Origin: Bacteroidales bacterium
Lineage (GTDB): Bacteria > Bacteroidota > Bacteroidia > Bacteroidales > UBA4181
Length of the DNA stretch: 38,841 nucleotides
NCBI GenBank assembly: GCA_031265445.1
Contig: JAISCQ010000164.1
Coordinates: 1 to 38,841, forward strand
Direction: 5' to 3'
In this document: piece after piece, positions 13,917-20,710 of the stretch
Layout of the letters: each line of letters begins with the position of its first letter
Position numbering within the stretch: position 1 is the first letter of the stretch
Position numbers and translations under genes: made by a program
Notes under the pieces: model-generated
Databases searched by the model: none
What the model was told of the DNA's origin: nothing
The model's input: only the letters and a program-made list of their open reading frames with translations

Positions 13917-16900
13917 ATGCAGCTATTTTGCAAACACATCCTCACTGTTTTGTTCTTCATCGCCTGCTGTTCCTGCAAGCATGCGGCGGATTATGGCTAT
14001 GTGCTTCCGCGTGAAGCAGATGATTCCCAGACCACATCCCCGCTTGTGTCGTACCTCAACATAACGTCATTCTGCCGGGATTCGCTGGGTTACATGTGGA
14101 TTGCCACGCTGGACGGACTGAACCGCTACAACGGATACGAATTTGTACATTACCGCCACGACGCGAATGATTCCACTTCGCTGGACAATGTGTTTATCTA
14201 TTCGCTCTTTCTCGATTCGGCTCATCGCTTATGGATCGGTACCGCCACCGGCATCAACCGCTACGACTTCGCCGACAACCGTTTTGTACGTTACACCAAT
14301 CCGGAAATAACCGGCTACACCGCCTTCTTCGAGGATCATGCGGGATGTATCTGGGTCGCCACGTTTTCAGGACTTGCCTACATGGATACCGTACATCAAA
14401 CCGTAAAACTGTTGCCCGACGGCCCGAAACAGTGCAGCCTGGTCCGGGAAGACAAACAGCGCCGGCTATGGACAGGCACCAAGGGAGGACAGGGACTGGC
14501 CCTGAAAAAGAACGATTCATGGGAATATTTCCCGCTGCCCGGAAACCGTCGCGTAAACTGTATCTACCAGGATTCGCAGCATATCTGGTGGCTGGGCACC
14601 GAGGCCGGCATCGCGTTATTTGACCCGTTGAACGGAACATTCGGCGAACCACCCTTCCCCTGCTCATGGGATATTAATTTCATCGAAGAGATAGAACCGC
14701 TGAAACTGCTCATCGGCACAAACGGACAAGGCATGTTCCAATATGACATCGTTTCGAGGCGGTTAGTGCATGACGAACCCCGGAAACTGAATCCGTTTCA
14801 TTCCGTCCAGATGCTCTCCTGCTACGTGGACAAACAGAACAATGTATGGACAGGAACTTTCGACAAGGGTTTTTTCGTATGGAACAAAGAACTGGACTAT
14901 TTCAACGCCGACCATCAACTCAGCGACCGCTTCAAGGGCAAATTTATCACGCGCATTACGGAAGACCGCTACGGCAATCTCTGGATCGCTACCCGTTACG
15001 ACGGCCTGTTCTGTTACACATCCAAACAGAAACTGATTTCGTACCGGGCGCAAAACCCGGATTTATTCCCCGATGAAAACGATTTTTTAGAATCTATTTT
15101 CATCGATTCGCAGGACCGAATCTGGATCGGCCTGGCAAACCGCCTGATCGTAGCTCGCATCTCGTCCGGCGGAGAACTGCGCGCGCCGGAATACGTTCAC
15201 CTGCCCGACGTAAGAACGACCAAGGAAGACCTGCACGGCAATATCTGGATCGGCACCCGGTCGGAACTGTTAAAAATAGAAAGCGGGCAACCTCCTGTCG
15301 CCCTCAAATCCATGCTGAAGCAGTTCAGCAACGTTCCCGATATTTGTATCCGCTCGAACGGCGACATCTATTTTTCGGTCTTCGAAACCGGCATTTTCAG
15401 GATCGGGGAAAATGATACCGCGATACAGAAGGTGAAAATCCCGCCGGAAGCTCAAAAAATAGCCCATCGCTGCGTTACTTTTTTTGAAGATTCCAAACAT
15501 CGCCTCTGGATGGGAAGTTACGGTAACGGCATGGCCTGCCTGGCAGAAGAAGAATGTATGATTTTCACCCGTAACGACGGATTGCCGAACAACAATATCC
15601 TGTGTTTCTGCGAAGATTCGCAAGGCGACATCTGGATGAGCGCCTCGCACGGAATCTGCAAACTGCGTTTTTCCGATACCACGCTTACCAACTATTTCAG
15701 CAGCGACGGCGCCCTGGGCGATCAATATTTCGAAAAGGCCGGATTGCGACATTCCGACGGACGTATTTTCTTCGCCGGCAACCACGGATTTACCTCCTTC
15801 AACCCCATCGAAGTCTTCTCCAACAAACATGCGCCCAGGATATGCATCGAAGACTTGAAAATATCCAACCGAAGCGTCAAACCCGGAAAAGGATCCGTAC
15901 TGACCAAAAACATCCTCCTCACCCGTGAGGTCACGCTCAACCACAAGCAAAATACCATTTCACTGGACTATGCCGGCATCGACTATCTGTTGCCGGATAA
16001 ACTGACCTATAAATATCAAATGGAAGGAATAGACACAAAATGGAACCTCGTAGGAAACCTGCGCCGAATATCCTATCCTACTCTTCCGCCGGGAAACTAT
16101 ACGTTCAAAGTACACGCCGTCAACCGCGATGGCGTGGAAAGCCTTCGCCCTGCAACCTTATCCATCAGCGTCAAACCGGCGCCCTGGTTCTCATGGTGGG
16201 CCTGGTCGCTGTATCTGTTTGCTTTCCTTTTACTGACATTCATGCTTTTCCGGTTTTCCTTTAAACTGAAAATGGACCGCCGTCTTCTCGAACTGGAACA
16301 TAATGAAAGGAAACGCGAACGCGAAGTATCGGAAATGAAAATCACCTTCTTTACCAACATATCCCATGAGCTGCGCACCCCGCTCACCCTCATCTCCGCC
16401 CCGCTGGAACAGCTCCTTTCCATGGATTCGCCGGACGAAAACAACACATGGCTGCTGAAAATCATCTCCCGCAATGTGCAAAACATGTTACGCCTGATCA
16501 ACCAGCTAATTGATTTCAGGAAAATAGAAGACGGAATACTCGCACTGCAGGTACAGCAAACGGACTTGATACGGCACGTACGCAACATACGGGAAAATTT
16601 CGCCTATCCGGCCGACCGTAAAAACATCACGATGCCCTTTTACCCGCATGTGCCGGAATTGTACGCCTGGACGGATACGGACAAACTCGAAAAAATCCTG
16701 CACAATTTATTATCCAATGCGTTAAAATATACGCCCGAAAACGGATGCGTGGAAATCCTGACCGGCGAACTGACCGGAACAGTCGCCGCAGAAAAATATC
16801 AAATCAACACCGGACAGGAACATCCGTTTGTAGAGATTACCGTGACGGACACCGGCGCCGGCATCCCCAACGACAAACTCAGCGAACTGTTCATCCGCTA

Positions 16901-17933
16901 CCGACAAATCAAAAATCCATCAGGAAACAAACCGGATTACAGCGGTAGCGGGATCGGGCTCTACTATACCAAACGACTGGTGGAAAAACACCATGGAAAA
17001 ATCCGGGCCGAAATAAAACCCGGCGGAGGTATGATCTTTTCGTTCATCCTCCCGATGGCAGACATCTATTCAAAACATGAAAAAATATCCCAAACAGACA
17101 TCATACCCGATGACACCCCAAAAAACATCCCATTGTCGAAAAAAAACGGGACACAGGAACATCCGTACTGTATTTTAATCGTGGAAGACAATATCGAGCT
17201 GAGAGATTTTATCCGGCGCATGCTCAGTGACAGCTACCGGGTAAGGGAAGCTCCGAACGGAGAAACGGCCTGGAACATGATACAAAACAACTCCATCGAC
17301 TTAATCCTGAGTGATATCATTATGCCGGGAATATCAGGATATCAGCTTTGTTCCCTGGTAAAGGAAAGCCCCGAATTTTGCCATATCCCCGTTGTGATCC
17401 TGACCGCCAAAAGCAGTATCAACGACCAGATGGAAGGCTTGGAACATGGCGCCGACGCTCACATCTGCAAGCCATTTCATGTGAATCACATGCTCCTGGT
17501 CATTAAAAATCAGTTTATCAACCGGGACCGGCTGCGCCGATACTTTTCCACGCCACAGTCACAGGAAAAGACGTCCATTCCGGTACCTATCAACGAATAT
17601 GACCGGAAATTTATGGATAAACTGACGGATCTGCTGAATCAAAGATTATCCGACCCAAACCTTGATATTGATTTAATCTCCCGGGAAATGGGATTCAGCC
17701 GCACAGGATTCTACCGGAAAATTAAAGGACTGACAGATACGGCGCCCGTTGATTTTTTGAAAAGCTACCGCTTGCGACGGGCCGCCGAAATGATGATGAA
17801 ACATATCCCATTGATCGACATCGCAGAACAAACGGGCTTCAATTCCTATTCCTATTTTTCAAAAGCATTTAAAAAACAATACGGAGTATCTCCAAAAGAA
17901 TATCAAAACTCCCGGCTAACACCCATCGATTGA
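13917..17933 (+). CDS. Hybrid two-component system sensor/regulator (HTCS)
   Basis: A 1338-residue one-protein signalling system that senses a periplasmic ligand and controls transcription. The order is: N-terminal signal sequence; two seven-bladed-propeller-type regions of Reg_prop repeats (such as YMWIATLDGLNRYNGYEF and RLWIGTATGINRYD) over about residues 45-670; a Y_Y_Y domain to about 745; a membrane helix near 757-781; HisKA with phospho-accepting His817 in SHELRTPLTL; HATPase with NLLSNALKYTP, DTGAGIP and SGSGIGLYY; a receiver with Asp1133 in LILSDIIMPG; and a C-terminal AraC-type HTH ending GVSPKEYQN. In Bacteroides such proteins regulate adjacent polysaccharide-utilisation loci in response to oligosaccharides. 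Here no susC/susD or enzyme cluster flanks it, so its target is unknown. Confidence 0.97.
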   Translation: MQLFCKHILTVLFFIACCSCKHAADYGYVLPREADDSQTTSPLVSYLNITSFCRDSLGYMWIATLDGLNRYNGYEFVHYRHDANDSTSLDNVFIYSLFLDSAHRLWIGTATGINRYDFADNRFVRYTNPEITGYTAFFEDHAGCIWVATFSGLAYMDTVHQTVKLLPDGPKQCSLVREDKQRRLWTGTKGGQGLALKKNDSWEYFPLPGNRRVNCIYQDSQHIWWLGTEAGIALFDPLNGTFGEPPFPCSWDINFIEEIEPLKLLIGTNGQGMFQYDIVSRRLVHDEPRKLNPFHSVQMLSCYVDKQNNVWTGTFDKGFFVWNKELDYFNADHQLSDRFKGKFITRITEDRYGNLWIATRYDGLFCYTSKQKLISYRAQNPDLFPDENDFLESIFIDSQDRIWIGLANRLIVARISSGGELRAPEYVHLPDVRTTKEDLHGNIWIGTRSELLKIESGQPPVALKSMLKQFSNVPDICIRSNGDIYFSVFETGIFRIGENDTAIQKVKIPPEAQKIAHRCVTFFEDSKHRLWMGSYGNGMACLAEEECMIFTRNDGLPNNNILCFCEDSQGDIWMSASHGICKLRFSDTTLTNYFSSDGALGDQYFEKAGLRHSDGRIFFAGNHGFTSFNPIEVFSNKHAPRICIEDLKISNRSVKPGKGSVLTKNILLTREVTLNHKQNTISLDYAGIDYLLPDKLTYKYQMEGIDTKWNLVGNLRRISYPTLPPGNYTFKVHAVNRDGVESLRPATLSISVKPAPWFSWWAWSLYLFAFLLLTFMLFRFSFKLKMDRRLLELEHNERKREREVSEMKITFFTNISHELRTPLTLISAPLEQLLSMDSPDENNTWLLKIISRNVQNMLRLINQLIDFRKIEDGILALQVQQTDLIRHVRNIRENFAYPADRKNITMPFYPHVPELYAWTDTDKLEKILHNLLSNALKYTPENGCVEILTGELTGTVAAEKYQINTGQEHPFVEITVTDTGAGIPNDKLSELFIRYRQIKNPSGNKPDYSGSGIGLYYTKRLVEKHHGKIRAEIKPGGGMIFSFILPMADIYSKHEKISQTDIIPDDTPKNIPLSKKNGTQEHPYCILIVEDNIELRDFIRRMLSDSYRVREAPNGETAWNMIQNNSIDLILSDIIMPGISGYQLCSLVKESPEFCHIPVVILTAKSSINDQMEGLEHGADAHICKPFHVNHMLLVIKNQFINRDRLRRYFSTPQSQEKTSIPVPINEYDRKFMDKLTDLLNQRLSDPNLDIDLISREMGFSRTGFYRKIKGLTDTAPVDFLKSYRLRRAAEMMMKHIPLIDIAEQTGFNSYSYFSKAFKKQYGVSPKEYQNSRLTPID

Positions 17934-17993: not shown

Positions 17994-19361
17994 TCAGCAG
18001 ATAATTTTTTCCAGCACGCCGACATTTTTAGCAATATCTTCGTCAGATAAAGCGTAATTGGTCAGATCGCCGGAAAAATACTGGTCGTATGCAGCCATAT
18101 CCACCAGTCCGTGACCCGAGAGGTTGAAAAGGATTGTTTTCTGTACCCCTTCTTCTCTGGCTTTCAACGCTTCGTTGATGGTAGCGGCAATAGCATGTGA
18201 CGACTCCGGCGCAGGAACAATCCCTTCGGTGCGGGCGAAAAGAACTCCGGCTTCGAATGAATCCAGTTGCTGGATGTCCACCGCTTCCATCATTCCGTCC
18301 TTCATTAGCTGGCTCACAATCATCCCTGCGCCGTGGTAACGCAACCCTCCTGCATGGATGTGGGCGGGGGCAAACTGATGTCCGAGCGTGAACATCGGCA
18401 GCAGCGGGGTGTAACAGGCTTCGTCGCCGAAATCGTACTGGAAGACGCCGCGTGTCAGTTTGGGACATGAAGCAGGTTCGGCAGCGATAAACCGTGTTTT
18501 GCGTCCAGCCTTGATATTGTGGCGCATAAACGGGTACGAAATGCCCGAGAAATTGGAACCTCCGCCAAAGCAACCGATCACGATGTCGGGGTATTCGCCT
18601 GCAATTTCCATCTGTTTTTCGGCTTCAAGCCCGATCACGGTCTGGTGCAGCGACACGTGGTTCAACACGCTTCCCAGCGTATACTTGCAGCCGGGTGTTT
18701 GCATGGCCAGCTCAATGGCTTCGGAAATGGCCGTACCGAGGCTTCCCTGATAGGTAGGATGATCGGTGAGGATCTTGCGTCCTGCCTTGGTCGACATGCT
18801 GGGCGATGTGATCACCTGCGCGCCCCAGGTCTGCATGAGCGAACGACGGTAAGGCTTCTGCTCATAACTGATTTTCACCATATAAACAGCCAGCTCCAAT
18901 CCGAAAGTTTTGGCGGCAAACGACATGGCCGTACCCCATTGCCCGGCGCCCGTTTCGGTAGTGATATTGGTCAGTCCTTCCTTTTTGCAGTAATACGCCT
19001 GCGCCAGCGCCGAGTTGAGCTTGTGCGAACCGACAGGACTTACGCTCTCATTTTTGAAATAAATGCGCGCGGGAGTATCCAGCGCCTTTTCCAGCCCTGT
19101 AGCGCGTACCAGCGGCGACGGCCGGTAAATTCTGTATTTCTCGCGCACTTCTTCCGGTATATCGATCCATGTATCGGTCTGGTTCAGTTCCTGCCGCGCC
19201 AATTCTTCGGCAAAGATGGGATACAGGTCTTCGGGCTTCAGCGCCTGCTTGGTTCCCGGGTGCAGGATCGGCAGCGGTTTGTGAGGCATCTCGGCCATGA
19301 TGTTATACCATTGCGCCGGTATTTCCGATTCGTTGAGTACAATTTTTTTTGGGTTTGTCAT
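17994..19361 (-). CDS. trpB2: Tryptophan synthase beta chain, TrpB2 type
   Basis: The 455-residue pyridoxal-phosphate enzyme condenses indole with serine to make tryptophan. TrpB2 proteins are longer than the canonical TrpB (about 400) and usually act without a tight TrpA partner, often as indole salvage enzymes. The PLP lysine is Lys114 in GSHKLN, the catalytic Glu is Glu136 in TETGAGQWG, and the cofactor phosphate loop is FGGGSNF. The C-terminal LSGHGLVDMAAYDQY block is also typical. No trpA, trpC or trpE is in the window. Expression is almost certainly controlled by the attenuator immediately upstream (19415-19555). It converges with the hybrid sensor gene. Confidence 0.93.
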   Translation of the reverse strand: MTNPKKIVLNESEIPAQWYNIMAEMPHKPLPILHPGTKQALKPEDLYPIFAEELARQELNQTDTWIDIPEEVREKYRIYRPSPLVRATGLEKALDTPARIYFKNESVSPVGSHKLNSALAQAYYCKKEGLTNITTETGAGQWGTAMSFAAKTFGLELAVYMVKISYEQKPYRRSLMQTWGAQVITSPSMSTKAGRKILTDHPTYQGSLGTAISEAIELAMQTPGCKYTLGSVLNHVSLHQTVIGLEAEKQMEIAGEYPDIVIGCFGGGSNFSGISYPFMRHNIKAGRKTRFIAAEPASCPKLTRGVFQYDFGDEACYTPLLPMFTLGHQFAPAHIHAGGLRYHGAGMIVSQLMKDGMMEAVDIQQLDSFEAGVLFARTEGIVPAPESSHAIAATINEALKAREEGVQKTILFNLSGHGLVDMAAYDQYFSGDLTNYALSDEDIAKNVGVLEKIIC

Positions 19362-19414: not shown

Positions 19415-19456
19415 TTAAAAACAAAAAGAGCCTGTTGATACGAACAACAGGCTCTT
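19415..19456 (-). terminator. Attenuator terminator hairpin upstream of trpB2
   Basis: On the minus strand AAGAGCCTGTTG (19456-19445) and CAACAGGCTCTT (19437-19426) form a perfect 12-bp stem with a 7-base loop, followed by TTTTTGTTTTT. It lies between the trp leader ORF and the trpB2 start. Its 5' arm can pair alternatively with 19499-19488, the antiterminator arrangement. Confidence 0.92.
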
Positions 19457-19499
19457 ATGATGCTATATCCATAACAGGCACAACACACCTCATTGTTCG
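19441..19499 (-). promoter_or_regulatory. Predicted antiterminator pairing of the trp leader
   Basis: On the minus strand CGAACAATGAGG (19499-19488) can pair with CCTGTTGTTCG (19451-19441): seven base pairs, a small internal loop, then three more. The second arm overlaps the 5' arm of the terminator, so the structures exclude each other. The first arm contains the leader stop codon and would be covered when a ribosome completes the leader. A CATTG/CAATG pairing (19509-19505 with 19495-19491) could act as the competing upstream hairpin. Confidence 0.75.
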
Positions 19500-19555
19500 G
19501 AGAGCAATGCGTGCCACCACCAGAAATTCGAATGGATGTTTGTGCTTACGTACAT
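19490..19555 (-). CDS. trpL: trp operon leader peptide with three consecutive Trp codons
   Basis: The ATG at 19555-19553 opens 21 codons ending at TGA 19492-19490. The peptide reads MYVSTNIHSN followed by FWWWHALLSEQ, so residues 12-14 are TGG TGG TGG. Three adjacent Trp codons in so short a frame are the hallmark of an attenuation leader. When charged tRNA-Trp is scarce the ribosome should stall there and leave 19499-19488 free to form the antiterminator. When tryptophan is plentiful it reaches the stop, masks that segment and allows the terminator to form. The frame lies about 20 bases after the predicted transcription start and 128 bases before trpB2. It is too short for most gene callers. 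Confidence 0.9.
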   Translation of the reverse strand: MYVSTNIHSNFWWWHALLSEQ

Positions 19556-19582
19556 TTCTTACTTTTTTACTTTTTGATGCTG

Positions 19583-19612
19583 CAAATATAAATGTAATTT
19601 TTTAAAATCAAA
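19583..19612 (-). promoter_or_regulatory. Promoter of the trp leader-trpB2 unit
   Basis: On the minus strand TTTG (19612-19609) is followed after 18 bases by TATATTTG (19590-19583). Transcription should begin near 19576, about 20 bases before the leader ATG. The promoter sits just after the mqnC stop codon, so trpB2 has its own start site. Confidence 0.75.
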
Positions 19613-19630
19613 AAAAATATTGATTACTTA

Positions 19631-20710
19631 TCAACATGACAAATGCTCATACTTTTGATTACGCAGGATCGGTGTGAAACCTGCTTTGCGAATAGCTTCC
19701 CGCATGCCGGCAACATCCGTTTGATGCTTTGCGCCGGCGGCCGATACTACGTTTTCCTCCATCATCACCGAACCCAGGTCATTGGCCCCGGCGTACAACG
19801 CCAGCAATCCGGCCGGTATTCCTGCTGTAAGCCACGAAGCCTGTATGTTGGTAACGTTAGGCAGCATCACACGGCTGACGGCGATCATACGCAGATGATC
19901 CTGCGTGCGGATGCTCATGTTGCGTTCGAGCACTGTTCCCGCACTCTGGAATGGCCACGAAATGAAAGCAAGAAATCCGTGAGCGCCTTCCGGCTTTTGC
20001 GCCTGCAGGTCGCGGATATGAATCAGGTGCTCGATGCGTTCCCTCTCGGTTTCCACATGGCCGAACATCATCGTTGCCGATGTCGGCAGGTTCATGGCGT
20101 GGGCTTCGCGCATGACGTCGAGCCATTGCTGCGTCGTGCATTTGCCGGGCGAGACCATCCGTCGTACCCGGTCCGACAAAATCTCGGCTCCGGCGCCCGG
20201 CAAACTGTCCAACCCGGCCTCAACCAGCGCTTCGAGCGTTTCACGGTAACTCATTCCTTCCTTTCCTGCGATATGATGGACTTCCGGAGGGCCCAACGCA
20301 TGCAGTTTTAGCCCGGGATAACGTTTTTTCAGCTTCCGGAACAAATCATCGTAAAATGGCAGGCCCAGGTCGGGATGCATGCCGCCTTGCAGCAATAGCT
20401 GATCGCCGCCGATTGCGAACAGTTCCCCGATCTTTGCATCGTATTCTTCATCGGTCGTGATATATGCATCGGCGCTGTTGCGGGTTCTGCAGAAGTTGCA
20501 AAAACGGCAATGCGACACGCACACATTCGTATAGTTGACATTGCGGTCGATCTGCCAGCTTGCCGCATCACCCGGGATATGGATCTGCCGGAGCCGGGAA
20601 CCCAGTTGCATCAATTCGGCTAAAGGAGCGCGGCGATACAGAAACAGCCCTTCGGCAACCGAAAGAAACTGCAAATCCAATGCCTTATGGTATAAATCGG
20701 GAAGATTCAT
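19631..20710 (-). CDS. mqnC: Cyclic dehypoxanthinyl futalosine synthase
   Basis: This radical SAM enzyme cyclises dehypoxanthinyl futalosine in the futalosine branch of menaquinone biosynthesis. The 359-residue length fits. The iron-sulfur motif CX3CX2C is Cys64, Cys68 and Cys71 in CVSHCRFCNF, inside the VNYTNVC...FC context of the MqnC/MqnE group. The choice of MqnC over MqnE rests on SATMMFGHVET, the ISWPFQ segment and the C-terminal MEENVVSAAGA. MqnE proteins I know differ at these places. No other mqn gene is in the window. It lies 106 bases downstream of the DeoR regulator on the same strand and directly upstream of the trp leader promoter. Confidence 0.9.
   Translation of the reverse strand: MNLPDLYHKALDLQFLSVAEGLFLYRRAPLAELMQLGSRLRQIHIPGDAASWQIDRNVNYTNVCVSHCRFCNFCRTRNSADAYITTDEEYDAKIGELFAIGGDQLLLQGGMHPDLGLPFYDDLFRKLKKRYPGLKLHALGPPEVHHIAGKEGMSYRETLEALVEAGLDSLPGAGAEILSDRVRRMVSPGKCTTQQWLDVMREAHAMNLPTSATMMFGHVETERERIEHLIHIRDLQAQKPEGAHGFLAFISWPFQSAGTVLERNMSIRTQDHLRMIAVSRVMLPNVTNIQASWLTAGIPAGLLALYAGANDLGSVMMEENVVSAAGAKHQTDVAGMREAIRKAGFTPILRNQKYEHLSC

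Follow-up and report, generated by a model that had tools for sequence, protein, structure and literature searches.

The window, by which we mean the whole 38,841-nt stretch of DNA that was analysed, encodes on its minus strand a 455-aa TrpB-like PLP enzyme (trpB2, 17994..19361) that matches TIGR01415 and PRK12391. Its product scores 600.8 bits against TIGR01415 (cut-off 518.9) and 704 bits against PRK12391, and it reaches 148 bits against TIGR00263, the trpB1 model, under the cut-off of 392; a score above the TIGR01415 cut-off and below the TIGR00263 cut-off places it in the TrpB2 class. The solved chains closest to it are 6hul_B, 4qys_B and 6hte_B, and the enzyme probably acts as a synthase that makes tryptophan from indole, which may be free or come from TrpA. 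Because its 3′ neighbour, a hybrid sensor kinase gene (13917-17933), is convergent, trpB2 appears to be transcribed alone. Upstream of the leader described below lies mqnC, on the same strand and ending at 19631. The sequence-only reading of this DNA had called trpB2 solitary, which holds for the locus, with its own promoter and a convergent gene downstream, but probably not for the genome, where trpC-trpF-trpA is also encoded.

Anatomy of the trpB2 leader

The minus-strand sequence ahead of trpB2 begins with a Bacteroidetes-type promoter (19612-19583), in which TTTG (19612-19609) is separated by an 18-nt spacer from TATATTTG (19590-19583). It is followed by a 21-codon leader peptide ORF, MYVSTNIHSNFWWWHALLSEQ, which runs from ATG at 19555 to TGA at 19490 and carries TGG TGG TGG at codons 12-14 (19522-19514), the putative sensor, referred to as segment 1. 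W-rich ORFs occupy the same place in relatives, with WWW, WRW, WWxW or similar motifs. Segment 2 (19499-19487), the 5′ strand of the antiterminator, is made up of CGAACAAU (19499-19492) and AGGU (19490-19487); it starts 22-23 nt past the first Trp codon and extends across the leader stop codon, which lies within it. Segment 3 (19452-19441), the 3′ strand of the antiterminator, overlaps the 5′ arm of an intrinsic terminator (19456-19415), whose stem (19456-19426) has 12 pairs, 6 of them GC, and a loop of 7 nt, and is followed by a U-rich tail. Promoter and leader ORF had both been described in the sequence-only reading and agree base for base, and the hairpin that had been proposed, with a 5′ arm overlapping segment 3, is found as well. 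The locus contains what is expected of an attenuator, namely a short ORF in which codons of the regulated amino acid stand in tandem, an intrinsic terminator between this ORF and trpB2, and an antiterminator that excludes the terminator and whose 5′ strand, as judged from folds and covariation, is positioned to fit a ribosome stalled at the Trp codons versus one at the stop.

Apart from the leader, the window has no short WWW ORF; shuffled windows contain 0.15 on average. At genome scale, we inspected the 120 nt downstream of each of the 70 TGGTGGTGG sites in the assembly: a short ORF and, after it, a terminator were seen only at the trpB2 leader, and a second WWW leader was seen at none of these sites, the likely place for one, the trpB1 promoter, being absent from the assembly. 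Among leader-bearing loci, 18 of 27 have a TANNTTTG box no more than 120 nt ahead of the leader ATG, versus 2.1 expected from shuffles.

Exclusive folds and their conservation

When the RNA was folded only to 19441, segment 2 paired with segment 3, as the sequence-only reading had suggested for a segment spanning the leader stop codon; this fold has −25.6 kcal/mol and a z score of only −1.26. With the Trp codons left out, the same antiterminator fold has −20.8 kcal/mol and a z score of −3.05, and 1 of 200 shuffles was as good. In its MFE fold (z −3.63), the complete leader forms the terminator instead of the antiterminator, together with a possible 1:2 pause or protector hairpin (GGCAC...GUGCC, 19515-19477, minus strand) that uses the Trp-codon region. 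The alternative folds appear in the order expected of an attenuator.

TrpB2 is present in 57 of 149 relatives; those close relatives that could be named are for the most part uncultured Bacteroidales MAGs, Candidatus Azobacteroides and Paludibacter. Of 57 Bacteroidales loci that could be tested, 29, from about 23 genera, have a short W-rich leader ORF ahead of trpB2. Further WRW-type leaders, in Paludibacter and others, came from a second set of 80 loci, and viral contigs yielded no relative. Paludibacter sp. 221 (L167) is a leader-bearing relative that can be cultivated. Of 27 leaders examined, 26 have the terminator hairpin, which differs in sequence between loci and ends 23-114 nt ahead of the trpB2 start, leaving it uncovered. 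In 26 leaders the strand that can pair with the terminator arm begins 14-39 nt past the first Trp codon. Taken together, these 26 antiterminators differ from dinucleotide shuffles with a combined p of about 3e-12, for sequences that are not fully independent; individually, 13 of the 26 do not stand out.

Covariation was assessed on a MAFFT alignment of 19 sequences. The antiterminator is paired in 92% of cells, with double-sided changes in 7 of 13 pairs, and the terminator in 98% of cells, with double-sided changes in 9 of 10 pairs; slid controls gave 33-56% and 20-53% pairing, respectively, and the covariation score of either structure was reached by 0 of 500 shuffles. These counts lean towards structure, since the sequences were picked for having a leader and a terminator. 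Because the two structures have segment 3 in common, covariation in both points to selection on two mutually exclusive structures. The alignment of upstream regions from related Bacteroidales, proposed earlier as the check on the attenuator, has thus come out in its favour, with Trp codons conserved and both exclusive stems covarying across many genera.

Predicted attenuation and the role of TrpB2

On this evidence, the leader very probably controls monocistronic trpB2 by ribosome-mediated transcription attenuation, with charged tRNA-Trp as the signal that is sensed. With tryptophan plentiful, the ribosome would pass the three Trp codons and reach the stop at 19490, covering segment 2; segment 3 would then be available for the terminator, and transcription would stop near 19415. 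When Trp-tRNA is scarce, the ribosome would stall at 19522-19514 and leave segment 2 free to capture segment 3, which would block the terminator and allow trpB2 to be transcribed. Whether segment 2 is free under a stalled ribosome and covered at the stop was judged from the size of the ribosome footprint. The conserved Trp codons, the terminator and the competing antiterminator, with compensatory changes in both stems, support the attenuation logic put forward in the sequence-only reading; the response to tryptophan is predicted from this architecture.

The hairpin could alternatively be merely the terminator of mqnC, with the Trp-codon ORF ahead of trpB2 a coincidence, given that the same-strand gene mqnC stops at 19631 and that no further terminator was noted ahead of the leader. 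However, the promoter sits between mqnC and the hairpin, and leader, terminator and antiterminator covary across genera. Moreover, mqnC is upstream of trpB2 in no other locus compared, including that of the closest relative (G003), which has the same leader and a TrpB2 99% identical to the one here. Conservation and the absence of mqnC upstream in this relative led us to reject the combination of a chance ORF and an mqnC terminator, and we consider such an origin of the hairpin scarcely credible. It is also very unlikely that translation or RNA stability is the main level at which the leader acts, or that its peptide has a function of its own. Short upstream ORFs have several possible modes of action, and termination here is predicted, but a U-tailed hairpin that does not cover the trpB2 start is kept in nearly all leaders; the leader peptides differ widely between species outside the Trp codons, which makes an own function of the peptide improbable.

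A further possibility, which we regard as tentative, accepts the leader as real and takes the Trp-regulated TrpB2 to be a de novo partner or back-up of TrpB1/TrpA, not an enzyme of free-indole salvage. It would fit the presence of trpC, trpF and trpA in the same genome (contig C221, locus L062, 313-2601) and the arrangement in one relative, the single-contig genome G143, where trpB2 is part of the trp operon, inserted between trpG and trpD (L026 1-3857; order trpB1-E-G-B2-D...-A, with gene names judged from the sequences and from trpB1 and trpA matches). It is opposed by the persistence of TrpB2 in 13 genomes, 89-100% complete, in which TrpA, TrpB1 and TrpC were not detected. Eight of these genomes (G017, G051, G052, G056, G078, G079, G116 and G134) keep the Trp leader, and therefore the leader is tied to the conversion of indole to tryptophan. 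Retention of TrpB2 without TrpA and TrpC, the pattern expected of indole salvage, was found in these 13 relatives and not in the genome studied here, which has trpC and trpA. To judge from their gene content, TrpB2 in the 13 genomes can only act on outside (free) indole or another substrate. Conversion of free indole to tryptophan is reported for Thermococcus kodakarensis TrpB paralogs in work cited in PMC11085991. De novo and salvage roles of TrpB2 could both hold, in different species.

For the genome studied here, the searches covered an assembly that is 85% complete, in which no TIGR00263 match above the cut-off was found, trpE is missing and tryptophanase gave no match. A standard trpB1 probably exists and was lost from the assembly, because trpC-trpF-trpA sits at a contig edge; the missing trpE and trpB1 are most simply explained by an assembly gap, with contig C221 starting inside the trp operon. 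We rejected as unsafe the idea that TrpB2 is the organism's only beta subunit, as trpE is missing too and the contig begins within the operon at trpC-F-A. Directly after trpA (L062 2711-6958) lies a 1415-aa ORF that by eye looks like a glycogen synthase/alpha-glucan phosphorylase fusion.

Returning to the attenuator, we lean, on balance, towards a picture in which Bacteroidales that lost the tryptophan pathway keep Trp-codon attenuation on a stand-alone TrpB2, so that the capture of indole from neighbours would be regulated and demand-driven, and in which the leader is repeatedly being lost, with stages of decay visible in close relatives. The physiological role of TrpB2 is usually guessed; the leader supplies an argument from regulation that it serves tryptophan supply in Bacteroidales, including genomes with no detectable pathway.

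Known attenuators and the distribution of the leader

The E. coli trpL leader (Rfam Trp_leader) has tandem Trp codons and works by 1:2, 2:3 and 3:4 pairing. The trpB2 leader follows the same logic; however, the enterobacterial attenuator controls the trp operon, whereas the leader here precedes a single trpB2, belongs to another phylum, differs in sequence and has no Rfam match. An Rfam search of the window and the locus gave nothing above the cut-off, and we dismissed sub-threshold sRNA matches at the locus as chance similarity to a strong hairpin.

Within the phylum, the Bacteroid-trp RNA (RF01692, 'Bacteroidete tryptophan peptide leader RNA') is listed in Weinberg et al. 2010 (PMC2864571). 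Like the trpB2 leaders, it occurs in Bacteroidetes and has a structured leader after a WWW leader peptide, but the leader and stem sequences differ, and its target is the trpB1 operon and not trpB2. In congeners and other relatives, the trpB1 operon has its own W-rich leader in 18 of 20 loci, and these leaders match RF01692 with up to 90.7 bits (cut-off 49 bits; 48.3 bits in the congener G008, locus L067). RF01692 had no match in the genome studied here even at E 10, and among 20 trpB2 loci it matched only L034, with 40.8 bits, below the cut-off. As they do not score as RF01692, the trpB2 leaders form a sister set that is not catalogued and has another target, an addition to the known Bacteroidetes trp-operon leaders.

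Predicted attenuators also precede trpB1EDGC and trpB2A in Corynebacterium diphtheriae (PMC1262725), where, much as here, a second unit containing a trpB is predicted to be under Trp-codon attenuation; in that actinobacterium, however, 'trpB2' shares an operon with trpA, whereas the TIGR01415-type TrpB2 described here is transcribed alone. For the Bacteroidetes species Flavobacterium psychrophilum, a transcriptome study notes leader-peptide attenuation upstream of amino-acid biosynthesis operons, in a passage on attenuation that does not name trpB2 or indole salvage (PMC9723704). The mechanism is thus long known and, as RF01692 is already catalogued, the attenuation logic is not new to the phylum; what is new is the target, a leader set outside RF01692, and its retention where only TrpB2 remains.

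The leader is distributed patchily. Within the genus, four of the eight genomes with a TrpB2 match have no leader (G002, G004, G005 and G007). One of these, G004, has two TrpB2 copies (L003 and L031), 88% and 87% identical to TrpB2 here, neither of them with a Trp-codon leader. On the tree, the leader presence label requires 17 changes, at least 11 of which are forced by well-supported branches, with presence calls that are approximate because a simple W-cluster rule was used. Two leaders are down to one Trp codon (L166, YWRLQ; L169, YWRC) and were counted as leaderless in the tree, and at L154, L157 and L168 a promoter and hairpin lie upstream of trpB2 without a Trp ORF. These five loci are apparent decay stages of the attenuator, whose decay is visible even inside the genus; such a patchy distribution, with decay under way, is a natural series in which attenuator gain and loss can be studied.
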